Below, one piece after another: positions 31,372 to 58,462 of a stretch of 64,000 bases of DNA (position 1 is its first letter; each line of letters starts with the position of its first letter). The position numbers were made by a program, and so were the translations under genes. Source of the DNA: a virus. The notes below the pieces were generated by a model. It saw only the letters and a program-made list of their open reading frames with translations, was not told where the DNA came from and did no database searches. The stretch is taken from the IMG/VR virus record IMGVR_UViG_3300025411_000008, positions 1-64,000 of that record; one strand, 5' to 3'.

Positions 31372-31372
31372 G

Positions 31373-31445
31373 TGGATGATGAGGGACTCGAACCCCCAAC
31401 CTTGACCGTGTAAAGGTCCTGCTCTGCCAATTGAGCTAATCATCC
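31373..31445 (-). tRNA. tRNA-Val (UAC)
   Basis: The 73-base cloverleaf has acceptor stem GGATGAT/ATCATCC, D-arm GCTC...GAGC, anticodon loop TTTACAC (anticodon UAC, reading GUA) and T-arm GGGGG-TTCGAGT-CCCTC. The first base pair of the anticodon stem is a G/A mismatch. The CCA end is not encoded. It lies one base from the encoded CCA of tRNA-Arg upstream. Confidence 0.92.
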
Positions 31446-31446
31446 T

Positions 31447-31522
31447 TGGTACCCCAGGAGGGATTCGAACCCCCGGCCTAAACGGTAGAAACGTTCAGCT
31501 CTGTCCACTGAGCTACTGGGGC
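31447..31522 (-). tRNA. tRNA-Arg (UCU)
   Basis: The cloverleaf has acceptor stem GCCCCAG/CTGGGGT (G-U at the end), D-arm GCTC...GAGC, anticodon stem-loop GAACG-TTTCTAC-CGTTT (anticodon UCU, reading AGA), and T-arm GGGGG-TTCGAAT-CCCTC. CCA is encoded. It supplies AGA, often rare in actinobacterial hosts. Confidence 0.92.
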
Positions 31523-31527
31523 CAATC

Positions 31528-31824
31528 TTAGTGCTCGATGTTGTGTTCCTCATCGAACTTCTTGTGTTCCTTACGCCAGATTCGTTTACCCCAGGCAAGG
31601 CCAATGAAAAGAATAACAATGTTCTCTACCGTTGAGTAGAATAACTCAGCAGTTGCATGTGGAGCATCAGTGATCAAACCAATAGCTTTGCGTAGATAGC
31701 CTGACTGACCGCTCTGTTCGCCAACCCACGATGGGTTAATAAGATGCGCTACACCAATAACTGCAAACACGATAGCAACAATGATGAATGGTGCTGCGAT
31801 AAAAAACTTGTTCCTACTTTTCAT
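31528..31824 (-). CDS. Small membrane protein between tRNA genes
   Basis: A 98-residue protein with a basic N-terminus, a strong transmembrane segment (FFIAAPFIIVAIVFAVIGVA, residues about 7-26) and a second near 65-80 (TVENIVILFIGLAWG), followed by a charged tail. TTAGGAGTAAGA precedes the start. The two-segment layout with charged tail suits a holin, but the endolysin gene is 29 kb away, so this is only a possibility. It is placed between tRNA-Arg and tRNA-Thr. Confidence 0.5.
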   Translation of the reverse strand: MKSRNKFFIAAPFIIVAIVFAVIGVAHLINPSWVGEQSGQSGYLRKAIGLITDAPHATAELFYSTVENIVILFIGLAWGKRIWRKEHKKFDEEHNIEH

Positions 31825-31836
31825 TCTTACTCCTAA

Positions 31837-32070
31837 TTAGTTGGTGTCAAAGATATTAACATCAATTCCGTTTGCGCGCAACACAGACAATGCTTCATCG
31901 TATGCAGGGTTATTAAGCGTACTTGCTGCAGGTGCAGCGCCTTTCAACACACCCTTGATCCACATACTATTAACACTATAATTACTAAATGCTGCTACCA
32001 GCTTAGGTTCTGCTGGAATGTTGCAGAGCTCCAGCATAACTGATGCTGCTTGCTTTAATGTCATTGTCAT
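31837..32070 (-). CDS. Hypothetical small protein
   Basis: A 77-residue helical protein, MTMTLKQAASVMLELCNI, PKLVAAFSNYSVNSMW, ending in LRANGIDVNIFDTN. Its start abuts the 3' end of tRNA-Thr (two bases away). No motif recognised. Confidence 0.5.
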   Translation of the reverse strand: MTMTLKQAASVMLELCNIPAEPKLVAAFSNYSVNSMWIKGVLKGAAPAASTLNNPAYDEALSVLRANGIDVNIFDTN

Positions 32071-32072
32071 AG

Positions 32073-32144
32073 TGCCCCCGGACGGTATCGAACCGCCGAC
32101 CTATAGTTTACAAAACTATTGCTCTACCACTGAGCTACAAGGGC
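32073..32144 (-). tRNA. tRNA-Thr (UGU)
   Basis: The 72-base cloverleaf has acceptor GCCCTTG/CGGGGGC with two G-U pairs, D-arm GCTC...GAGC, anticodon stem-loop ATAGT-TTTGTAA-ACTAT (anticodon UGU, reading ACA), and T-arm GGCGG-TTCGATA-CCGTC. CCA is not encoded. Confidence 0.92.
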
Positions 32145-44033: not shown

Positions 44034-44840
44034 TTACGCCTGGCTGACAGTCATTGTCCAGGATGGGATTGAAGGGCCGTATGGTGGCGTTGGCCACGCT
44101 GGTGCATAACCATTAGCCACACTTGGTTGAGCAGCAGCATAAATTTGGTTTGGTGTATCTACTGCCCAAACCAACTCCATGAAGTCTCCAGCACTCATTT
44201 GTTGAATAAAGTTCCAAGAAGGCAAAGCATAAGGAGATTTAGCATAAATACTTATTTCTCCGCTTGACCATGGTGTGTCTGCTCCATTTATTCTTGCCCA
44301 TATGCTTGCATTGTATGTTGAGTTGCCACCAACTCCAACAACAGCAAATTGTGCACTGAAGCTAAAGATGTAAACACCCGCTGCATCGGGGGTAATTCTA
44401 CTGCCTGATACTAGAGTAAACCCTTGTGATCCTGCATCGTTGTTGAAAGTTACCGTATAAGGCGTTCCGCTAGCCACTGCGATCTGATTAGTTGTGTCGT
44501 AGTAGTTACCATAGGTTGATGAGTATTGTGGAAGGATATCAGTGCTATTGATCTGACGCGTTGTAGAGTCAAATATGCCAGCGTATAGATACAAGCGGTA
44601 CAAACTAGTGCGTTTTTCAACCCACCAAACCTGATCAGGTGCAATCTGCTGAAGGTTGATGCCTGCTGGGTATGCCTGCAGATCGATCTCGATCTGAAAG
44701 CCCTTCATGTCTAAGCCCAGACAGTAATAGTTATTAGGTGCGCCTGCAGCATTGCTGAATGGGTGCAGCAGAGGACCCGTCGTTAGGATCACTCTTCTTA
44801 CGTTGAGATTGCTACTCGTTTTTGAACCGCTGATGTTCAT
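44034..44840 (-). CDS. C1q/TNF-like jelly-roll baseplate protein
   Basis: A 268-residue protein. The second half has FTLVSGSRITPDAAGVYIFS, then ASIWARINGADTPWSSG and WNFIQQMSAGDFMELVWAVD, the order of strands in C1q/TNF-like trimeric jelly rolls (F-Y-x-F ... W-x-R ... L-x-G-D-x-[VIL]-x-L). Such domains commonly form trimeric host-binding tips. Here it lies between hub and gp25-like genes, so it may be a central spike or receptor-binding part of the baseplate. The N-terminal half (GLDMKGFQIEIDLQAYP) is unrecognised. Confidence 0.6.
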   Translation of the reverse strand: MNISGSKTSSNLNVRRVILTTGPLLHPFSNAAGAPNNYYCLGLDMKGFQIEIDLQAYPAGINLQQIAPDQVWWVEKRTSLYRLYLYAGIFDSTTRQINSTDILPQYSSTYGNYYDTTNQIAVASGTPYTVTFNNDAGSQGFTLVSGSRITPDAAGVYIFSFSAQFAVVGVGGNSTYNASIWARINGADTPWSSGEISIYAKSPYALPSWNFIQQMSAGDFMELVWAVDTPNQIYAAAQPSVANGYAPAWPTPPYGPSIPSWTMTVSQA

Positions 44841-47644
44841 GCTAGATTCAATCCATAGCTCATAATTTTACCATTTTTCATAGGCGCTGTGAGAGTGGCT
44901 TGTGTAGTGAACCCACCTGAACGGTCACCCGTGTGAATGACTGATGATACATAGAACATGTAATTGTTCTGTGTGGCAGTCTCGTCAGTTACGTTCATAG
45001 ACACTCTCATACCTGGATAGAGCTCAGGCATAAATGTAAAGGTAACATTGCTAACGTATTGATTGGTCCATTGCTGCATGAAGGTATACAAGGCATAAAT
45101 ATACTCAAGAGACAATGAGTGAATCATATTCTGCTCATTAACGTATGGTCTCATGCCATATCTATCAAGGAATGTCGCTGCAGACAATGTATTTTGCTTT
45201 GTTGTCGGTTCGCTTAATGATTGAGAACCAAACAGCATTGACATCGTTGTTGCATCTTGGATGCTAACGATACCGTTGGTAGTAAGATAGTCAGCATTGC
45301 TTACCTGTTGACCGACGCCGTTGGTGTCACCAACAATACCTACGTGTGTTGCAAGTTGGTTATCATCATGATAAATCTGAAAGTCGATGATTTCAACTGG
45401 GCTAATGTCTAGAACAGGGTCAGTGCCATAAATGCCGTAGTAGTCAGGGAACCATGCAACGAAGTCACCATTTGGTGCACTCATATATGAACGCATGCCT
45501 CCCTGCATAATTTGAGTCAAGTCTTGCATGACAGGGTTGTCAAGCAGGAAAGCTCTTGGTGTACCAAGCATTGAGCTCGATCTTGGGTCGAACTGTGGCA
45601 TACCAAACAAGTTGTTGTATGACTTGGCAAGGTTGATTGTTGCTCGTTGTTGCGGGTCGTTTGGGTTAAGCGTCGTTGCTTTATCTGTGGTAGATGTAGA
45701 AGAGTTGTAATCAGTATTCAATAGAGAGGTTGCTTGAGCACCAGTCCAGCTATTGATTAACGTTAATGGTGAACGAGCACCAATATACTGTTGACCAGCA
45801 TATCCTTTGCTTGCAAAGATGGTCTTACCACCCACCATGTCAGGCCAAAAAAGCTTCTGAATGTGAGGACCTACTCCATAGGTGGATGACTCAATGGCCC
45901 AACCGACTCCTGGCTCACTGGGAATATTGTCAAGCCCAACACCTAAAGGTGGTTGCTGTCCAAACCCTCCGATCAGAATAGAAACGTGGTTAGGAAGGGG
46001 TCCTGCCTCACCAATAACATTCCAGAAAATTAAAGCACCAGGGGTTGGTATTGTATTCTTATCAGACCAGATACCATACGTATCGGGTAAGCTACCGTCA
46101 AGTGGGCCACATTCACCAGTTGTATTGCTACCATGAAGATTAATACCAATTTGTTGGTAAGCCCAGTAAGCAAGTCCTGAGCAGTCAAAAGCACCGTTCT
46201 TTGCTCCATAGGCAGTAGCAGGAGTCATTCGTGTTACTTGACGACCATCATATTCAGTTGGCTTCTGCGTATAAGCATCGCCAAGCTGACCGGCAAGTAC
46301 ATAGATAAGCTTATTAACTGCTTCTGTCCAAAGAAGGCCACTATTGGCAAGGGTTGTTCCTCCACCATAGGTCGAGTTGGCGTTTGCTTGATCAGTTTTT
46401 GATGGAACAACAACACCAGCAACTGGTGAAGTTGTTGGGTCTGGCCAACTTGTACTAATTGTTATAGGTCCTGGGTCTTCTGTGGAGTTCCATTTCGTAG
46501 GGTCACTAATTTTACCATTAAGGTACGCTGCAACACCTGGGTGAACCTGTATATAATCAACAGTCGGGTCATATACTGCATATCCCTTGAGCGATTGATT
46601 TGCTTTTTGTGGGATAGATGTTGCTCTTAGATTAACAACAAGGTTGTTGCTGCTATATAGTTGAATAATTCTTCCATCAGCCCCAAACGTACTTGGGTTA
46701 TTCATCAACCATGTTTTTGCATTGTCTTGAATCGTTTGATATTGCTTCTTTTGTTCTGAAGTGAGCTTATCTGTTACCTGGTACTGCAAGAATGACCAGG
46801 GTGCTGAGCAGTAAAAGATATCTTCTGTAATAAGATTATCGTTTACTGGGTTCATCGTGTTAGGACCCGGAAAGTTTGCTTTGCCACCAGCGATTGGGCT
46901 AGTTAAGAAACCTCTTGCTTGATTAGCAGTAAGAGAAACTCCAATACCTTTATCTGGTGCACTAGTATTGCTTGTCGTGCTTAGGTCTGTTGAACTGCCC
47001 TGAGATCTTGATTTATTAACATTTAGAATATTAGCAAGGTCTTGCACTGCATTCTGATTAAGTTGCTCGCCAGCTAGCATTCTTGTATAAGCTTGAGCTG
47101 CATAGTTAATGAATTGATCTGGAACGTTTTGAATGTGAATGCGATCAGGATTCCAGCCGCAAACACCATAAAGCATATTTACAACAGCAGTTGCTACGCC
47201 ACCATCATTAAGAGTTTGCTGTGTACTCCGAGCAACTTTGTCCATAAAATTAAGCAGCAAGCTTTGGTACTTGACAAGCGTGTCATCCCAATAAGTAACT
47301 TGAAGAATACGCAGAGTACAATTAGCTGTGATCTGGATAGGCGTTGGCACCAGTGTCTCGATAGGAGCATACGTGACATAGCCTGTAAACACTTGTACCC
47401 ACTGTGTTCTCTTTAGGAAAACAGTAATACGGTCCATAGTACTGATTTGGTTAGGCATACCAAAGTTATACTTACGGCCTGGGTTGTTTAACGTGCAGTT
47501 GAAACTACTCACTGCATTCATCTCACGGTCCACTGTAAAGTTCATTACATCAGCAGACACGTCCATAGGCCCAGCAGCAACTGAGTCAATGACAACACTG
47601 ATGTCCGGCGAATAAATGAAGGTACCTGATTGATTAAAGCTCAT
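44837..47644 (-). CDS. Baseplate hub with NlpC/P60 peptidase
   Basis: A 935-residue protein. The N-terminal 200 residues look like a gpD/gp27-type hub (PGRKYNFGMPNQISTMDRIT, FTGYVTYAPIETLVPTPIQI). The middle has an NlpC/P60 cysteine-peptidase domain: GAFDCSGLAYWAYQQIGINL (catalytic Cys, about residue 482) and PNHVSILIGG (catalytic His, about residue 544), as in tail lysins that cleave peptidoglycan stem peptides. The C-terminal third resumes hub-like beta sequence. It would drill the wall during injection. It joins the gene upstream by ATGA overlap. Confidence 0.8.
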   Translation of the reverse strand: MSFNQSGTFIYSPDISVVIDSVAAGPMDVSADVMNFTVDREMNAVSSFNCTLNNPGRKYNFGMPNQISTMDRITVFLKRTQWVQVFTGYVTYAPIETLVPTPIQITANCTLRILQVTYWDDTLVKYQSLLLNFMDKVARSTQQTLNDGGVATAVVNMLYGVCGWNPDRIHIQNVPDQFINYAAQAYTRMLAGEQLNQNAVQDLANILNVNKSRSQGSSTDLSTTSNTSAPDKGIGVSLTANQARGFLTSPIAGGKANFPGPNTMNPVNDNLITEDIFYCSAPWSFLQYQVTDKLTSEQKKQYQTIQDNAKTWLMNNPSTFGADGRIIQLYSSNNLVVNLRATSIPQKANQSLKGYAVYDPTVDYIQVHPGVAAYLNGKISDPTKWNSTEDPGPITISTSWPDPTTSPVAGVVVPSKTDQANANSTYGGGTTLANSGLLWTEAVNKLIYVLAGQLGDAYTQKPTEYDGRQVTRMTPATAYGAKNGAFDCSGLAYWAYQQIGINLHGSNTTGECGPLDGSLPDTYGIWSDKNTIPTPGALIFWNVIGEAGPLPNHVSILIGGFGQQPPLGVGLDNIPSEPGVGWAIESSTYGVGPHIQKLFWPDMVGGKTIFASKGYAGQQYIGARSPLTLINSWTGAQATSLLNTDYNSSTSTTDKATTLNPNDPQQRATINLAKSYNNLFGMPQFDPRSSSMLGTPRAFLLDNPVMQDLTQIMQGGMRSYMSAPNGDFVAWFPDYYGIYGTDPVLDISPVEIIDFQIYHDDNQLATHVGIVGDTNGVGQQVSNADYLTTNGIVSIQDATTMSMLFGSQSLSEPTTKQNTLSAATFLDRYGMRPYVNEQNMIHSLSLEYIYALYTFMQQWTNQYVSNVTFTFMPELYPGMRVSMNVTDETATQNNYMFYVSSVIHTGDRSGGFTTQATLTAPMKNGKIMSYGLNLA

Positions 47645-49077: not shown

Positions 49078-51533
49078 TATTTAGTTGGCTGTCTATTGGG
49101 GTTTACTGCACCATTATTAAATCCTGCGGTGCCTTGTTTTGTTGATGCTGTAAGAATGCCTGCGAAAGAAGGGTGGATACCAACAGTAACTTGAACTTGC
49201 TGTGGAGTGGGGTTGGTGGGCGTGGGCACGCCTGGCATTGAATAGCCCGGAGATGATGATGAGTACCCTGGTATGCGATATGGTGTGGTGGGCGTTTGGC
49301 CTGGTATTGAATATTGATACTGTGGCAATTTACCACTGTTTATTTGGTTTACTGCTGCTTCTGCTTGTTGATAAGCTTTTAAGTTTGCAGGTGTTGGACT
49401 GGCAACGTAAGTATTATAAGCTGTCGTTGCTTGAGAATTGGCTGCGTTTGCTTGGTTTTGAGCAAATGCGTTAACTCCGCCACCCATGTAAGCAAGAGCT
49501 CTGGCTGATGCTCCTCCAGCACCAGCGGAGTTTTTATTAATTGCTGCGGCTAAGGCTGTGGGGGTAGCAGCAGCTGATCCAGTACCAGCTTTATTAAATA
49601 TTTGTTGCCGTTTGACGATATTCCAAGCCCAGTCAGCAGCTTTTTGCAATGATGAAGCAGCAGTTTGATAACCAGTTGCGCCTGATGAAACAAGGCTTTG
49701 TAAGATAAGCTGAAGAACAACGATGCTATCTTGATTCTTGTTTAAGAAGTCGTTCTCATCCTTATATGTTGATTGGATGTCGATTCCAGCCCAACTTAGA
49801 ATTTGTTCTTGTGATGCATTAGTTGCTGTGGCAATTGATGACTTGGACATGTTTCTCATTGCCCCGAACAAGCCCGTATAACTTACACCAAGCTGTTGAG
49901 ACAGAAGAGCATTGTTAATCATGGAACCCATACCTTCGGTTCCTGTAAATCCTGCTGCCTGTGCTACAAGGTCACCAGCACCAAACTGAGCTGCATTAAC
50001 ACCCAGTTGTGCTGATGTTGCAGAACTCGTTCCCATGCCAGCATAACTAGTCATGCCCTGTAGATAAGATTGGTTACCATAGGTAGTACTTGTCGTAGTG
50101 TTATTTTCAAGGTTACGAACTGCACCGAAAGCACTGGCGTTATCATTAAGGCTTACGCCAGCGCCCAACCCTGCTCCAAGAATTCCTTGAGCCTGTTGTG
50201 CAGAAAGACCATATTGTGTTTGGAACTGGATACCCTTATTCACATAGTTATTAAGGGCGCCACCCTTCAAACCAAGTTCAGATCCATAAACCTGGTTCTG
50301 CATAACATCTTGCATGCTATAAAATGGGTTTAAGTTAAAGTCAGACTTAAGGAAAGCACTGATTCCCTGGCCAATGCTACGACCATAGTCAACCTGACCT
50401 GTTACACCACCCATGGCTTGACCCATTGCAGTGTACTGACGTGCTGTATTTGCAACGTCAGATAAGCCACCATATATTTGCCCTGCTACGTTGGCATAAC
50501 CTGAGAACTTTGTAAATCCTTCTACGAGCTTGCTGCTAAAGACCTTAGCAACGGCGTTGGCTGTCTTAAGGGCTGTTGTCTCAGGTCCTTCTTGGATACC
50601 ACCGACTCTGGTATATGTATCTGGACCAGTTTGTACAGTATTAGAGCGTTGTGATTGCTTAATGCTTTTTAGGTCTACGCCAAGACCTCCAAGCGCAGAT
50701 TGTACTCTTCCACCAATGCCTTTGCCAAGGCCAAATGGGAGTGCGTCAGATACTCTGGAAATCTGGTCCATCATATCTGTATAGGCGTATTCAGCTGCTC
50801 TACCTTCGCTACCAGGTGCCATGATCTTGCCTAGTCTTGCATTGGCATAAGGGTATTGCTTAAGCTGAGAACGAATTAAATTCTGAGCAGATGTAACAGG
50901 TGTTTTTCTAACGTATGCTCTTCGGCCTCGTTGACTAACGCGTCCTGTTAAAGAATCAGTATTAACTGATCTAGTCTCTTCTTCATCGTCTTCATCGTCA
51001 AAACCGCGACCACTGGCGCCACCGCCACCGCCACCACCACCGCCTCCAGACCTTTTCAAGAAACGGCTATAGATGCCACGACGCTCATTCTCGTAAGAGT
51101 TGGTAAAGTCGGGGCTAGCAGTAGATGGGTAAACACCACCTCCACCGCCTCCTCCACCACCGCCTCCTCCACCACCGATGCCAAGCATGCCAAGGACATT
51201 GCTCATGTTGCCGCCAAGGCCCTTGACACTATTCATCATCTCGTTTAGAGCATTGATGTTATTAGAGAAGTTGCTCTGGTTAGATTGCACCAGGCTTTGG
51301 ATAGTCTGGAGAACAGTATCCATCTTGCTCAGCACTTCGAGGTTCTGGTCGAAGTACTTACGCATAGTATCAGCACGCTCACTAATACCAGATACGCCCT
51401 CTTCGATAGCGCCGATGTCAGCTCTGATCTGCTTTGTTAAAGCACCGAGCTGGTAGAAACCCTGTACTGCAGGGCCTGTATTACTGGAGACATCAATATT
51501 TAGGTTATACGAGCTTTCATTGTCGTTAGCCAT
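49077..51533 (-). CDS. Tape measure protein
   Basis: An 818-residue protein; the ATG at 51533 overlaps the chaperone frame by 8 bases, favouring it over the ORF start at 51545. N-terminal helices (GALTKQIRADIGAIEEGVSG, NLEVLSKMDTVLQTIQSL) are followed by two poly-Gly tracts of about 14 and 10 Gly, then a long helical and Gly/Ala/Gln-rich body (ALGGLGVDLKSIKQSQ, LGLKGGALNNYVNKGIQFQT) and a Pro/Thr-rich end. Its length sets the tail length (roughly 0.15 nm per residue would give about 120 nm). Position after the frameshifted chaperone pair fits the usual order. Confidence 0.82.
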   Translation of the reverse strand: MANDNESSYNLNIDVSSNTGPAVQGFYQLGALTKQIRADIGAIEEGVSGISERADTMRKYFDQNLEVLSKMDTVLQTIQSLVQSNQSNFSNNINALNEMMNSVKGLGGNMSNVLGMLGIGGGGGGGGGGGGGGVYPSTASPDFTNSYENERRGIYSRFLKRSGGGGGGGGGGASGRGFDDEDDEEETRSVNTDSLTGRVSQRGRRAYVRKTPVTSAQNLIRSQLKQYPYANARLGKIMAPGSEGRAAEYAYTDMMDQISRVSDALPFGLGKGIGGRVQSALGGLGVDLKSIKQSQRSNTVQTGPDTYTRVGGIQEGPETTALKTANAVAKVFSSKLVEGFTKFSGYANVAGQIYGGLSDVANTARQYTAMGQAMGGVTGQVDYGRSIGQGISAFLKSDFNLNPFYSMQDVMQNQVYGSELGLKGGALNNYVNKGIQFQTQYGLSAQQAQGILGAGLGAGVSLNDNASAFGAVRNLENNTTTSTTYGNQSYLQGMTSYAGMGTSSATSAQLGVNAAQFGAGDLVAQAAGFTGTEGMGSMINNALLSQQLGVSYTGLFGAMRNMSKSSIATATNASQEQILSWAGIDIQSTYKDENDFLNKNQDSIVVLQLILQSLVSSGATGYQTAASSLQKAADWAWNIVKRQQIFNKAGTGSAAATPTALAAAINKNSAGAGGASARALAYMGGGVNAFAQNQANAANSQATTAYNTYVASPTPANLKAYQQAEAAVNQINSGKLPQYQYSIPGQTPTTPYRIPGYSSSSPGYSMPGVPTPTNPTPQQVQVTVGIHPSFAGILTASTKQGTAGFNNGAVNPNRQPTK

Positions 51534-52439
51534 TTTCGTCTCCAATCTTATCTATATCTATATTGGCAAATGGGTTGATTAAACTCATTTGCTTAACAAA
51601 TTCCTCATCAGCAGATCTGTCTGGGCTAGCATTAGCACTCTTGTGGATCTCAGCGAACATCTGTTCCACTACTCTTGCTTCTTCAGTTGAAGTGGGAGCT
51701 GACCAAACGACTTCGTTTTCTTCGTTTTCTTCCTTGTGCTTCATGTAGCTCTTGTATAGCTCTGGGTTAGAAACAAACATTGATTGCTCAAAATGTATTT
51801 CTTCAAGCTCATTATCATATTTGCGTTTGCGAAGCTTAACGGAGGCAAGCAAGCATTGCTGTAAGAAATTGAGATCTGTGTTGGCAAAGATACCAACCGA
51901 GTGAGCGTATTCGCTCTTCTCAATTACGTACGGGTCTACTTCCCATCTTTTGGGGTATCCGTTTCCTCTTGCGTCTTCTCAAAGATCTCAAAAGGTACTA
52001 CAGGTTCAATGATGCCGAGCTCTTGGAGCACGAGGACCACACGATTCTCGAGGATTTCAATCTCTTCGTAAAGGATATCAATCACTGTGTCATACCAGTT
52101 TTGAGAGACGTAGTCATACTTTTGCTTAATAACATTCAGGCTCTTATTACCTGGGATAAGCTCTTTGCCATCTACACTGATTAGACCGGCTGCAACAACA
52201 GCTGCCTTGTACGAACGGCCATAGCCAATTGTATCAAGGAAAGGCTTGGTGAGTAGGCTGATTTCTAACTTGTCATTTACTGTTAGTGTACGAACCACAA
52301 ACTTGTGGAAGGGAATTCGAGTGACTTCTCTCTTAAGCTGACCTAAGAAGAGAAGCCCCTCGAATTCGTCCTTCCACTCGTCGGGGAAAGTATTCATATT
52401 GTTGGCCGGGTTAAAGCCTTCATTGTTGATGGTTGTCAT
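51526..52439 (-). CDS. Tail assembly chaperone, -1 frameshift fusion
   Basis: The frame continues from the 167-residue chaperone by a -1 shift at C-CCA-AAA (51954-51948). After the slip the reading RWEVDPYVIEKSEYAHSVGI and onwards stays open to 51526, through the ORF that otherwise would start with TTG at 51852. The fused protein has 304 residues. Tail assembly chaperones with such a shift, encoded just before the tape measure gene, are a hallmark of tailed phages (lambda G/GT type). The extension is helical and charged and would bind the tape measure. Only the shift itself is inferred; both frames are plain in sequence. Confidence 0.8.
51936..52439 (-). CDS. Tail assembly chaperone (unshifted product)
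   Basis: A 167-residue helical protein starting at ATG 52439, with AAAGGTAAT upstream (a longer frame to 52478 exists without a good ribosome site). DEFEGLLFLGQLKREVTRI, then SYKAAVVAAGLISVDG, LYEEIEILENRVVLVLQELG. It stops at TAG 51938-51936, shortly after the slippery sequence at 51954-51948. It likely binds tape measure during assembly, in a set ratio with the fusion form. Confidence 0.75.
   Translation of the reverse strand: MTTINNEGFNPANNMNTFPDEWKDEFEGLLFLGQLKREVTRIPFHKFVVRTLTVNDKLEISLLTKPFLDTIGYGRSYKAAVVAAGLISVDGKELIPGNKSLNVIKQKYDYVSQNWYDTVIDILYEEIEILENRVVLVLQELGIIEPVVPFEIFEKTQEETDTPKDGK
51948..51954 (-). promoter_or_regulatory. Slippery heptamer for -1 frameshift
   Basis: C CCA AAA in the reading frame of the upstream gene, fitting X-XXY-YYZ, with a stop 10 bases after it in the zero frame and a long open -1 frame. 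The neighbourhood is the tail chaperone gene just before the tape measure, the classical place for this event. Confidence 0.8.
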
Positions 52440-52494
52440 ATTACCTTTGGGTCTAGGGCTACGTTCATAGCCTACCATTTAGTAGACTAAATTA

Positions 52495-53484
52495 CTAGTT
52501 CTTGTTCAAGAAACGGTTGTAAGGCTTCTTAACACGGCGGCTACGGAGCTCAACCTGTGCAAAGAACTGACCATTAGTACCCGTACCGGAAGCAGGTACC
52601 GTAAGAACCGTACCAGCAATGTTGTTAGCCAGAGCAGAACCAGTTACGATACCACCGCTGACAGACGTTGTGGTCGAAGCAGGAGCAGCCAAGTAACCAA
52701 TGTTGCTTGTACCGCTAACACCTACAGCCGTACCTACAGCCGTACCAGAAGCAACGGCAACTGAGGGGTGGATACCTTCGGTCTGAATGAAGCCAAAGTA
52801 ACCAGCTGGGATGCTAACCAGTGGAACACCAGCGAATGCACCTTGCTTGGTACCAACCGTAGTAACCAGACCATTTACACCGCTGAGGCTGGTGTTGGCA
52901 CTGATAACATACGATGTACCCTGACCATCTTGGCGAACCTGGTAAGTAACACCAGAAGCGGTCGAGATGTAACGGTTGGTCTCATCGAACCAAACAGTAG
53001 CCCAACCACCAGAGATGGTTGAAGTAGTACCGTTGTAAGCAAGCGTGTAACGAGCGCCATCTGGGCCAGTCAACGAGTAGTTAGCAGAAGAACCAGAGAG
53101 TGTCGACTGAGGTGTACCGATACCGGCACCAGCACCAGCAGCACCACCAGCAGAAGCACCCTGGGCACCAAAGCCAGCAATGCTGAACGAGGTCAGTGAC
53201 TGACTGGTTGTGCCAAGGAGGCCCAAGAAGCTTACGCCACTTGCAACAGCCTGCTGGTTAAGGCCAGCCTGCGATTGTGCGATAAGGTAGCCACCACTTG
53301 CAGTGGTAAGGTCGGTGTTCACGGTGACAACCTTGATCACGTTCTGACGAGCACCGAGGCTGATCTTTGAGAACGTGTCGGCATCTACAACGTATTGAAC
53401 GCCTTGCACCATCTTGCGGTGATCAGGAAGAATGGCTTGGCCAACTCCTGCTTGAAGCTGAATAACGTATGAACGTACAGACAT
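52495..53484 (-). CDS. Virion structural protein
   Basis: A 329-residue Gly/Ala/Ser/Thr-rich beta protein with one Met-poor, low-charge core. SVRSYVIQLQAGVGQAILPD opens it; the middle is a Gly/Ala linker (GAQGASAGGAAGAGAGIG); the end (GFIQTEGIHPSVAVASGTAV, TVPASGTGTNGQFFAQVEL) resembles the small beta-barrel decoration proteins (DUF2190-like). It lies between tube and chaperone genes. A structural or decoration role is likely; exact place is uncertain. Strong Shine-Dalgarno (AAAAGGAATTAAAA) suggests high expression. Confidence 0.55.
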   Translation of the reverse strand: MSVRSYVIQLQAGVGQAILPDHRKMVQGVQYVVDADTFSKISLGARQNVIKVVTVNTDLTTASGGYLIAQSQAGLNQQAVASGVSFLGLLGTTSQSLTSFSIAGFGAQGASAGGAAGAGAGIGTPQSTLSGSSANYSLTGPDGARYTLAYNGTTSTISGGWATVWFDETNRYISTASGVTYQVRQDGQGTSYVISANTSLSGVNGLVTTVGTKQGAFAGVPLVSIPAGYFGFIQTEGIHPSVAVASGTAVGTAVGVSGTSNIGYLAAPASTTTSVSGGIVTGSALANNIAGTVLTVPASGTGTNGQFFAQVELRSRRVKKPYNRFLNKN

Positions 53485-53502: not shown

Positions 53503-54024
53503 TTAGATAATTGCGTTGTTGTAGTTAGAGTAGACAGAAGGCACAAACGCAATTGGCGACTCTGTTCTCTGACGGTACATGATTGTCATCGTCTTAGGGA
53601 TTGTCATGGTACCAATCTGGATCGTTTCATCGATCTGTGCATTGGTAATGACGCATCCGTGGTAAACGATCGAACGTTGTGTACCGTCCGGCTTCGTGAT
53701 GACCTTGATGCATTGAACTTCACCTTGCTGCAGCTGAGCCTTGAAAACATCAAGGAGGTCAGCAGCTGTGGTAAAGTTCGATCCGAGCTGGGCCCAGACT
53801 TCTGAGTTCCACTGTTCAAGGAACGTGACTTCAAGAGTACCGGCCTCCAACGCAGCAGGCAGTGCAATCTCAATTGGGTACGCAGCATCAAGTGGCTGAA
53901 TAGGCACTGGCTGATTAACAGGCTGTGGTCCACGTTCAGCAATCATCTGTGCGTAAATGAGCACAGAACCATTGTAAGTAAAAGCTGTATAATGCCCACC
54001 TACACGAAATTTTGAATTAGCCAT
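53503..54024 (-). CDS. Tail tube protein
   Basis: A 173-residue protein right after the sheath gene, as usual for tubes of contractile tails. FRVGGHYTAFTYNGSVLIYA, then PIEIALPAALEAGTLEVTFLE, EVQCIKVITKPDGTQRSIVYH and IQIGTMTIPKTMTIMY give the simple beta fold of tube proteins (T4 gp19-like). It polymerises inside the sheath to form the DNA conduit. Confidence 0.75.
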   Translation of the reverse strand: MANSKFRVGGHYTAFTYNGSVLIYAQMIAERGPQPVNQPVPIQPLDAAYPIEIALPAALEAGTLEVTFLEQWNSEVWAQLGSNFTTAADLLDVFKAQLQQGEVQCIKVITKPDGTQRSIVYHGCVITNAQIDETIQIGTMTIPKTMTIMYRQRTESPIAFVPSVYSNYNNAII

Positions 54025-54037
54025 AAGTTAATTACTC

Positions 54038-55858
54038 CTAGTAAACTACGGTGTTGGTCTGTGAATTAGTAGCGATAACTGAACCAGTCTGAGTGTTGAG
54101 ACTCAGAGTTGCCTGGATGTAGTTGATCGGGTACGTAGGCGAGTACTGGAACGTGATGTTAATCGTCGTAGGTGTACTCGGGTTGATGGAGAATGACAGG
54201 TTCTGGTAGCTCTGAATCAAGCCATTGTTAACTGCATAAACCAATTGCCCCTGTACTGCACCAAGAGCTGCAGCAGTTGTCGTAGCAGTCAGAGGTCCAC
54301 CAATAAGCGACGTGTTCTGGAGGGCAACTCTAATTTGGTTAGCCAGAACGTCACCGATAGCATTCAGCGAAATTTCCTGTGTCAACCAGTTGCTTACGTT
54401 CGTTGTAAGACCTTGGAGGATCCAGAAGTTACCGTCACGACGCTGGTAAACAGTAGTAATACCGTAAGGCAGGTAGTTGTACTGAGCGTCAGACAAGCTG
54501 ATTTGGTTAGGAACATAGTTGAAGCCAGCAACCGTCTTATTAGTAATTGGCGTGGCAACGTTAGTTTGACCGACGTATACACCAGCAATAGCAGCAGCCA
54601 GGTAGTAACCAGGAATATTGAAGTTAACGTTGTTAAGGCCAGTCGATGTGCTCAAACCTGGGTTGAAGTTGATCGATGCTGGGAACACGACTGATGTTCT
54701 CACACCAGCATTAGTCGCACCAATACCGCTTGCGAAGGCTTGCATCTGGCTTGTAGTCACTTGGTTGGAAGTACCATCGATACCAAGGAAAGCTCTCTGG
54801 TAGTTACCAGCAGCTGCTTGAGTCGTAAGGTAATTCGTAACAGATGCAGCTACGGTGTTCGTACCGTAAGGAATTACCTGACCATATGTATTACCGCTTG
54901 TATAAACGTTACCGTACAGAGGTACGACCACATCAATGTTGTTAAGAGCGGCAGCGTAAATGGGGTTAGAACCAGTGGTGCCAGACCCAACAGAGAACGT
55001 GTTGTTCCAGTCACCAACCGTTGCAGCACCAGAGCCGGAAGTGGCAAGACGAGCAACTGGAAGAATGGTTACAGTGTTTGCACCATTCATGAAAGCCATT
55101 TGCGCACCAAGCAGAGCTGGGTTGGTAATGGTTGTTCCACTAACTGTAGCACCAATTACAGAAGCAGCTTGTGTGTACTCGTAGAAAGTACCGTAAGCGC
55201 CCCAGTTGTGACCATATGTGATCTGCACAAGACCACTAGGGATAAGGTTCTGTACGGCTGTACCGGAGTAAGTAGATGTGTTTCCAACCCCGCTCAACGT
55301 AGTATTGTTAACATAGAAAGCAGAGAGCGAAGCAGAAGCAACGGTGTATGTACCGTTAAAACCGCTCGATGTACCAGTGAAACCTGTAATGTTTACGCTA
55401 GAGCCACCACTAATGGTGTTTGTACCAGACGTAGTGAAGATCCACTGAGTACCATTACCCGAAGCACCAGTGAAGTTGGTAAGAGCAGTGGTTCCGCTCG
55501 TAGTCAGGTAAGAGAAGGCGCCAAAGCCACCTGAAGCAGTGGGTGCGTTTGCAATGGTAAAGCTAGTACCATAAGAACCTGTAACGGTTACACCGAGGCT
55601 GTTTGTCCAAGTTACTGTGTAACCAGAGTTAGCTGTGTAGGTACCATTGTAGCTTGTATTGACCATTGGAATGGTGAGCTGACCAACGTTGATACCACTA
55701 ATAGCTGCTACGTTACTGAACGTGTCAGTCTGTGTACCGGCGAGAGGGTTGTCAGCGATGATGGCGATGTTAAGAGACGTAGGGTTAACTGCTGTTAAAG
55801 CTTGGCTCGTCGTTTGTGTGACGTAAACCCCAGGAATCTGGTAGTTGGAAATGGGCAT
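54038..55858 (-). CDS. Contractile tail sheath protein
   Basis: A 606-residue sheath protein. It begins MPISNYQIPGVYVTQTTSQA, the IPGVYV start found in sheath proteins. Near the C-terminus, FNYVPNQISLSDAQYNYLPY, GITTVYQRRDGNFWILQGLT and TQEISLNAIGDVLANQIRVA, then a beta end (INITFQYSPTYPINYIQATL), are the conserved sheath polymer core. Middle residues (80-220) form an added beta-rich domain. It marks the phage as a myovirus and drives DNA injection by contraction. Confidence 0.9.
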   Translation of the reverse strand: MPISNYQIPGVYVTQTTSQALTAVNPTSLNIAIIADNPLAGTQTDTFSNVAAISGINVGQLTIPMVNTSYNGTYTANSGYTVTWTNSLGVTVTGSYGTSFTIANAPTASGGFGAFSYLTTSGTTALTNFTGASGNGTQWIFTTSGTNTISGGSSVNITGFTGTSSGFNGTYTVASASLSAFYVNNTTLSGVGNTSTYSGTAVQNLIPSGLVQITYGHNWGAYGTFYEYTQAASVIGATVSGTTITNPALLGAQMAFMNGANTVTILPVARLATSGSGAATVGDWNNTFSVGSGTTGSNPIYAAALNNIDVVVPLYGNVYTSGNTYGQVIPYGTNTVAASVTNYLTTQAAAGNYQRAFLGIDGTSNQVTTSQMQAFASGIGATNAGVRTSVVFPASINFNPGLSTSTGLNNVNFNIPGYYLAAAIAGVYVGQTNVATPITNKTVAGFNYVPNQISLSDAQYNYLPYGITTVYQRRDGNFWILQGLTTNVSNWLTQEISLNAIGDVLANQIRVALQNTSLIGGPLTATTTAAALGAVQGQLVYAVNNGLIQSYQNLSFSINPSTPTTINITFQYSPTYPINYIQATLSLNTQTGSVIATNSQTNTVVY

Positions 55859-57112: not shown

Positions 57113-57846
57113 AGAACAGGTACGTTATAGTAAGGGTGTCCTGGCCATACATTCTCGAGGACTGTCTGCTGGTTAACGATGATTGTCGTGTTGCTAAATG
57201 GTTGGGTGGTACCAACACGATATGGGTATTGTGCGCTGGGCCCAGGACCAGTTCTGATGGTTTGCGGGCTTACGTCTGCAACTTGGAAGCGTTCACTCGT
57301 AGAGGTAGGAACACCATTGTTCCAGCTTTCTACTCGTACCACTAGGTCACCAGTACGGATCTGAGGAAACCATGAAAACTGAACTCTTGGGTTCTGCTTC
57401 CAGAATTGACCAGTTGAGAGGCTCTTACGATCATCTTCTGTATCAGAAGCCAGCATATAAAGGTGATAGCAAGTAGGTTGGAAGCCACCTGAGAACGTAG
57501 TGCCATAACAGGTCGGGCAGTAGCTATTGCCAGTCTGTTTATAAACGTTGCTTACACGGTTTTGAATAGACGTGTAAGGATTAGATGGGTTAGGGCTGTC
57601 TTGGCATTCTTGGCAATAGCCTACGAGACCAGCTTCTGCGTCTTCAGCACGCCACAAAAGACGTACGATGCACTCTTCTCCGAACCATTGCAATGTCTCA
57701 TCGTGGAAACGTTGTTGGTTAACTTGAGTGAAAGCTTCCCGTTGTTTAACAACAAGCAAAGGGCTTTCAAGCTGTGTATTTAAGCCGCCGCTACCAGAAA
57801 CAACAGGACCTGGCTGTGGATTGATACCTGACACACTAGACCCCAC
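57109..57846 (-). CDS. Head-tail joining protein with zinc motif
   Basis: A 245-residue protein starting with GTG at 57846, inside the end of the homing endonuclease gene. QWFGEECIVRLLWRAEDAEA, VGYCQECQDSPN, then NSYCPTCYGTTFSGGFQPTC give four or five Cys for a zinc site, and VQFSWFPQIRTGDLVVRVES a beta core. This arrangement is like neck or stopper proteins of actinophages. The gene is on the downstream side of the homing endonuclease insertion. Confidence 0.55.
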   Translation of the reverse strand: MGSSVSGINPQPGPVVSGSGGLNTQLESPLLVVKQREAFTQVNQQRFHDETLQWFGEECIVRLLWRAEDAEAGLVGYCQECQDSPNPSNPYTSIQNRVSNVYKQTGNSYCPTCYGTTFSGGFQPTCYHLYMLASDTEDDRKSLSTGQFWKQNPRVQFSWFPQIRTGDLVVRVESWNNGVPTSTSERFQVADVSPQTIRTGPGPSAQYPYRVGTTQPFSNTTIIVNQQTVLENVWPGHPYYNVPVL

Positions 57847-58462
57847 CCATGTTCACTGCAAAATCAGCAACTTCGTTTTCCCACACTACGCGGGCAGTCC
57901 AACCTTGTTTTGCATACCAATCAATGAGATCCTGCGGGTTTTCTCCACGGTGCCAGTATGTTCCCCATACTTCTACAATCTCACGGGTGTCTGACTTTAC
58001 GTAGTCTGGGATGTGAACGCCAACCTTTGGGTTCCCAATAAAATAACGCTTGTCTTGTGTGCTAACATAGCCAAGTGGTTCAAGAACGGGCTTAAGTGAC
58101 AATTCCACTTTAGAAGACTTATTATTAGAACCATAGACGTTCATAAAACGGCCTTCTTTGTGAAGACGCACATTCTTTTCTGACATCTTTTTGCGGAACT
58201 CATCATCATATTTATGTTTTGCCAAGCGTTTTAAGTTACGCTCTCTTTGTTCTTCAAACGTGACCGTGCGTATGTAATGGCCAGCAACAAAACGTGTTTG
58301 ACGTGTTTTATTTGTTTTTACAGTTTCACCGCATCCGCATCCACATAAGACATCTCGGTCTTGACATTCTGGACAAGTTTTACGGCTTGGACCGCCACGT
58401 GTTTTAATTTGTTCTTTTTCTTCATTGCAAACACGGCATACGTATTGGAGTGTGACTGGCAT
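57836..58462 (-). CDS. Vsr-like homing endonuclease (second copy)
   Basis: A 208-residue endonuclease like the one at 9206-9913. It starts with a zinc-type domain (YVCRVCNEEKEQ, TCPECQD, CGCGCGETVK), then a basic region (RERNLKRLAKHKYDDEFRKK) and the Vsr-like PD-(D/E)XK nuclease: SSKVELSLKPVLEPLGYV (Glu), VHIPDYVKSDTREIVEVWG (Asp and Glu), TYWHRGENPQD (His), then WYAKQGWTARVVWENE. The first copy has NUMOD3 repeats, this one a clearer Cys domain. It starts at TAATG with the connector gene and its end covers the start of the next gene, so no coding gap was made. It was probably a late insertion in the neck genes. Confidence 0.85.
   Translation of the reverse strand: MPVTLQYVCRVCNEEKEQIKTRGGPSRKTCPECQDRDVLCGCGCGETVKTNKTRQTRFVAGHYIRTVTFEEQRERNLKRLAKHKYDDEFRKKMSEKNVRLHKEGRFMNVYGSNNKSSKVELSLKPVLEPLGYVSTQDKRYFIGNPKVGVHIPDYVKSDTREIVEVWGTYWHRGENPQDLIDWYAKQGWTARVVWENEVADFAVNMGGV

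Follow-up and report, generated by a model that had tools for sequence, protein, structure and literature searches.

A conserved CCCAAAA heptamer points to a lambda G/GT-type −1 frameshift in the tail assembly chaperone gene of an uncultured contractile-tailed phage

INTRODUCTION

In the window (the whole stretch of 64,000 nucleotides of viral DNA analyzed here), a tail assembly chaperone gene is overlapped at its 3′ end by a second open frame. Is this second frame a gene in itself, or is it an extension of the chaperone, reached by ribosomes that slip back by one base? Phage lambda has a non-contractile tail and uses G-GGA-AAG as slippery sequence, and sequence similarity between its genes and those of the window is not expected. 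The lambda G/GT frameshift and its conservation are reportedly the subject of Xu et al. 2004. Upstream of the lambda tape measure gene, a −1 frameshift gives rise to two forms of the chaperone, and this arrangement is widely conserved (PMC5009743).

An earlier interpretation of the window, made from the letters alone (hereafter, the sequence-only reading), proposed a programmed −1 frameshift in a tail assembly chaperone gene. The proposal is supported by the conservation of the heptamer and of its phase, the homology to annotated fusions, and the fold. From these comparisons we infer, with high confidence, that this contractile-tailed phage uses programmed −1 ribosomal frameshifting of the lambda G/GT type. 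The case is a further example of a known arrangement, and the biology is otherwise as expected. The features are listed in Table 1.

Table 1. Features of the chaperone locus and of the neighboring tail genes (window coordinates)
Feature	Position	Strand	Evidence
Zero-frame ORF (gpG-like tail assembly chaperone)	51936..52439	−	Sequence; PHROG 2792/2992; fold match 2ob9
AAAGG, probable ribosome binding site of the zero-frame ORF	52444..52448	−	Read from sequence; relatives
Slippery heptamer C-CCA-AAA (−1 frame CCC-AAA-A)	51948..51954	−	Sequence; 29/32 distinct relatives
−1 frame extension (T-like domain), 140 codons + TAA	51526..51948	−	Protein conservation; Bixzunavirus/E3 T-half homology
Excess-RNA-structure region, candidate stimulator	51880..51939	−	Folding energies of 24 relatives
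Gene in tape-measure position, 818 aa	49077..51533	−	Position; weak similarity to Sebata tape measure
Tail-tube-position protein	53503..54024	−	PHROG 2756 virion structural protein, E 4e-42; after sheath, as in Sebata/E3
Tail sheath (contractile tail)	54038..55858	−	PHROG 2839 tail sheath, E 7e-30

RESULTS

Two overlapping frames around a CCCAAAA heptamer

The zero-frame ORF has 167 codons and ends, read on the minus strand, with ...GAA ACG GAT ACC CCA AAA GAT GGG AAG TAG. The heptamer CCCAAAA is therefore read in the phase C|CCA|AAA, which is suited to a tandem −1 slip, and 9 nt separate it from the TAG at 51938-51936; the spacing of 10 bases given by the sequence-only reading is the same one counted up to the first stop base. 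Direct reading of the letters also agreed with its claim that the −1 frame is open for 140 codons, down to the TAA at 51528-51526, and the fusion of the zero frame with this extension would measure 304 aa. The TAA lies inside an 8-nt overlap (ATGGCTAA) with the 818-aa ORF in the tape-measure position, whose ATG is at 51533-51531.

The earliest start-type codon of the −1 frame is the TTG at 51852-51850, 34 codons past the start of the slip, and no Shine-Dalgarno-like stretch was found in the sequence ahead of it (TTACAGCAATGC), as the sequence-only reading had also noticed. ATG first appears at codon 58 and again at codon 70. Among the 93 ORFs of at least 100 aa on both strands of the window, we counted 35 in-phase XXXYYYZ heptamers; in only one of them, the CCCAAAA under study, is the −1 frame free of stops between the slip and a point at least 100 codons past the zero-frame stop.

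The ATG at 52478, taken from the ORF listing as a possible zero-frame start, was set aside: position 52439 has AAAGGT upstream and agrees with the starts of the relatives, which carry AAGG- or AGAGG-type sequences at the position equivalent to the putative ribosome binding site.

Identity of the two products

The zero-frame product matched PHROG 2792 (E 7.4e-18) and PHROG 2992 (E 1.6e-15), each annotated as “tail assembly chaperone,” and a tblastn search with it retrieved 208 phage records (Mycobacterium, Gordonia, Rhodococcus, Eggerthella, and Mycolicibacterium). A DNA-level search in phages gave no match. The AlphaFold model of the zero-frame product, built from 18 family members, had a mean pLDDT of 73.5, and its best PDB fold match was the HK97 chaperone 2ob9 (probability 0.99, E 0.058, 11% identity), a likeness of fold only, the homology being undetectable at sequence level. 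From the sequence matches and the predicted fold, we identify the zero-frame product as a tail assembly chaperone with an HK97-like fold. In a viral fold library, the 291-aa chaperone of Rhodococcus phage Finch topped the matches of both halves (E 1.7e-9 for the zero-frame half and 5.4e-3 for the −1 half).

Taken alone, the −1 product had no significant PHROG match (including PHROG 2992, by hmmscan) and no tblastn match in phages, and its homology is thus seen by profile only. The profile of the −1 family aligned with a profile of known −1 halves (Sebata, SCentae, E3, LE2-3, and two contigs) with an hhalign probability of 97.9 and E 6.5e-13. A single model of 301 positions, PHROG 2992, covers both halves, and the T half of Sebata corresponds to its positions 173-301.

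Comparison with annotated systems

The place before the tape measure gene, considered classical in the sequence-only reading, agrees with the gene order: sheath, tube-position protein, one gene, the chaperone pair, and then the 818-aa ORF. Bixzunavirus (mycobacteriophage cluster C, for example Sebata and ErnieJ) has the same order, from the sheath and the structural/tube protein through one additional gene to the chaperone pair and the tape measure. The zero-frame and −1-frame domains of Bixzunavirus are homologous to those of the window and the direction is again −1, whereas the heptamer is G-GGA-AAA, 16 nt before the stop, instead of C-CCA-AAA, and the zero-frame products share only about 37% identity, across 45% of the query. 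Rhodococcus phage E3 has a homologous pair (gp114/gp115) before the tape measure gene, but with G-GGA-AAA and a shorter distance to the stop; SCentae also has an in-phase GGGAAAA. In Eggerthella phage LE2-3, a homologous zero-frame gene occupies the equivalent place and, at an A-AAA-AAA heptamer, the −1 frame runs on beyond the stop, although the pair is annotated there as two separate genes and the downstream frame is much more divergent.

A frameshift is annotated in Sebata, as a joined CDS, and in E3, where gp114/gp115 are marked as possibly joined by ribosomal slippage; for ErnieJ, a tail chaperone frameshift is stated (PMC5122674). C-CCA-AAG, which resembles the window site, is listed as highly shift-prone in Escherichia coli (PMC5009743). 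In the part of the literature covered, no paper was found that gives CCCAAAA as the slip site of a phage tail chaperone.

Conservation of the slip site among relatives

The search for relatives was based on the N-terminal region of the zero frame, so that the scans did not select for the slip site. A total of 32 distinct sequences was obtained, one of which (L018) is identical to the window gene; no relatives were found in bacterial or archaeal genome contigs. The sequence-only reading had proposed to compare the heptamer and the frame in related phages: CCCAAAA was in phase in 29 of the 32 sequences, although relatives are not independent samples and the effective numbers are lower than the counts. 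The three exceptions were L097 and L098, with an in-phase GGGAAAA, and L095, without a slippery site.

Two points were absent from the earlier interpretation, namely the RNA structure described below and the movement of the zero-frame stop. Counted from the first base of the heptamer, the stop is at 10, 16, or 28 nt in the 29 sequences: its position shifts among relatives, while the heptamer stays. Furthermore, in four relatives (L029, L037, L078, and L083) a TAA of the −1 frame directly abuts the heptamer upstream, so a fusion could only arise by a slip at the heptamer or in the next few codons.

Across 18 relatives, the entropy is zero over the 8 nt CCCAAAAG, and the −1 products of the relatives are 27-56% identical to that of the window. 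The proline codon of the −1 frame is invariably CCC, a codon that makes up about 10% (23/229) of the proline codons in the neighboring tail genes. A second scan, in which the −1 product was searched as back-translated patterns with free codon choice, again returned CCC AAA only. We also observed that the slip is surrounded by a perfect 4-bp inverted repeat, CCCAAAAGATGGG (window 51954-51942, minus strand), which is nearly invariant owing to the dual coding of P-K-R-W. The corresponding CCCA/TGGG mini-hairpin was rejected as a conserved element: its invariance in 18 sequences is accounted for by the dual coding, and it is absent in L083 and L085.

Translation of the −1 frame and alternative explanations

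If the −1 frame is read from the slip, the codons that precede any possible start should be conserved as protein. The sequence-only reading had noted that, without a shift, the first 34 codons after the slip would be unused. The first start-type codon is indeed at codon 34, and the residues PKRWE-DPY, A17, G21, L28, and Q32, all before or at that codon, are invariant in 18 sequences; conservation then continues from PKRWExDPY to the C-terminus. In codons 10-33, the entropy was 1.09, 0.66, and 1.58 bits at positions 1, 2, and 3, respectively (permutation p about 5e-5), and downstream of the zero-frame stop the third position is the most variable of the −1 frame. The use of pN/pS is limited here because synonymous sites are saturated. 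These patterns argue that translation of the −1 frame begins at the slip.

A different route to the same protein would be a separate gene, started internally at the TTG or at a later ATG by termination-reinitiation. We consider this very unlikely for the window, even though L095 apparently uses a stop/start overlap ATG and T4-like phages reportedly make the two chaperones by a non-frameshift mechanism (Vladimirov et al. 2022, cited in PMC10885494). The start codons are scattered, and none is conserved: over the first 41 alignment columns, no start is shared by more than 6 of the 18 sequences. The protein-like conservation ahead of the first start, moreover, argues against an internal start, which would also leave the invariant heptamer without explanation. 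Slippage of the polymerase on the A run, instead of the ribosome on the heptamer, is extremely improbable: the site does contain such a run, but the conservation reaches the CCC and the codon phase, and four A residues are short for polymerase slippage.

We regard the two remaining explanations as refuted, the first by recurrence and the second by conservation, and give both a negligible probability. The record is metagenomic, and an assembly or sequencing error could have split one gene; the two frames and the in-phase heptamer, however, recur in 29 distinct sequences from many assemblies, and the arrangement also occurs, with a different heptamer, in cultured phages with finished genomes. 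The heptamer could also stand by chance beside an unrelated open frame, as the number of in-phase heptamers in the window ORFs shows that they are not rare, but only one of them has such geometry, and it is kept in spite of the divergence of the −1 products.

By ribosomal frameshifting, most ribosomes would make the complete 167-aa chaperone and terminate at the TAG, and a minority would move one base back on C-CCA-AAA, with peptidyl-tRNA-Pro re-pairing from CCA to CCC and tRNA-Lys from AAA to AAA, to produce the fusion. RNA folded just downstream would probably aid the slip. By analogy with lambda, the tape measure protein could be coated by the G part, while the small number of fusion molecules could recruit tail tube subunits through their T part.

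RNA structure and other candidate stimulators

In 24 relatives, the 60 nt that begin 8 nt past the heptamer folded more stably than synonymous-codon permutations (mean z −2.23 ± 0.32), with a significance that is approximate because the sequences are related. This was the strongest of 19 offsets tested; apart from the overlapping next segment (−1.24), the others in the two genes ranged from about 0 to −1.3. In the window sequence alone, positions 51947-51848 had a z of −2.8 against dinucleotide shuffles. RNAalifold found among the relatives neither a covarying pair nor a single conserved fold, and the individual folds differ; one outer stem register (columns 14-25 with 58-69; i+j=83) was mildly above the null (z 2.6). 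A search in Rfam gave nothing real. We read these folding energies as a real, rapidly diverging candidate for a structural stimulator downstream of the slip.

An upstream Shine-Dalgarno stimulator of the dnaX type was considered and rejected: a GAGG lies 10 nt upstream, also in many relatives, and is no stronger than in synonymous recodings.

A relative without the heptamer

L095 (IMGVR_UViG_3300005573_000063) has both halves. A relative that loses the heptamer and keeps the two frames had been named in the sequence-only reading as evidence against the frameshift, and L095 formally is such a relative. Its zero frame, however, ends with ...CGGAAGAATAATG..., where the ATG of the −1 frame overlaps the stop, and we thus consider it an alternative route and not counterevidence to the frameshift in the window. 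The second product has an extra MHFDCPNGHIIIGSSFCTLCESDRS ahead of the conserved domain, and its remainder aligns end to end with the family (probability 99.5, E 5e-23). We observed that this second half (L095:3432-3971), with its apparent TAATG start, has a zinc-ribbon-like N-terminus (CPNGH...CxxC).

The sequence of L095 suggests that frameshifting was lost and replaced by a start codon, and a loss with replacement supports the view that the −1 frame needs one route or the other. No closer relatives of L095 were found, and since it is a singleton, its arrangement is possibly an assembly artifact. Tentatively, and with somewhat less than even confidence, we propose that the route is evolvable in this family: the heptamer would be near-fixed, the RNA stimulator fixed in position but divergent in sequence, and L095 would make a free T-like protein and no G-T fusion. 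L095 offers a natural comparison to ask whether tails can be assembled without a covalent link between G and T. More generally, the locus provides a clean, alignment-supported case of a tail-chaperone frameshift in uncultured, apparently freshwater, mostly lake-type myoviruses, where annotators can fuse a pair of ORFs which gene-finding programs would call wrongly.

Neighboring genes in the window

The 818-aa protein in the tape-measure position had no significant PHROG or Pfam match. In a pairwise BLASTP test against the Sebata tape measure it reached E 1e-4; position and this weak similarity hint at a tape measure protein. Its sequence is rich in Gly and includes poly-Gly runs.

The gene that separates the tube-position gene from the chaperone pair encodes a 329-aa protein (52495-53484) with no PHROG or Pfam match; in Sebata, SCentae, and E3, this slot contains hypothetical genes that differ from it in length. 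Among the tail-module genes, a 208-aa ORF (57836-58462) resembles, by eye, a homing endonuclease (cysteine-rich N-terminus, EVWGTYWH motif); in the tail module of SCentae, too, an endonuclease is annotated (L017:2131-2844). A 935-aa PHROG 2810 virion protein (44837-47644) carries an NlpC/P60 peptidase domain (Pfam, residues 479-560), which makes it a probable cell-wall hydrolase associated with the tail. Three tRNA genes (Val-TAC, Arg-TCT, and Thr-TGT) are present at 31372-32144 on the minus strand.
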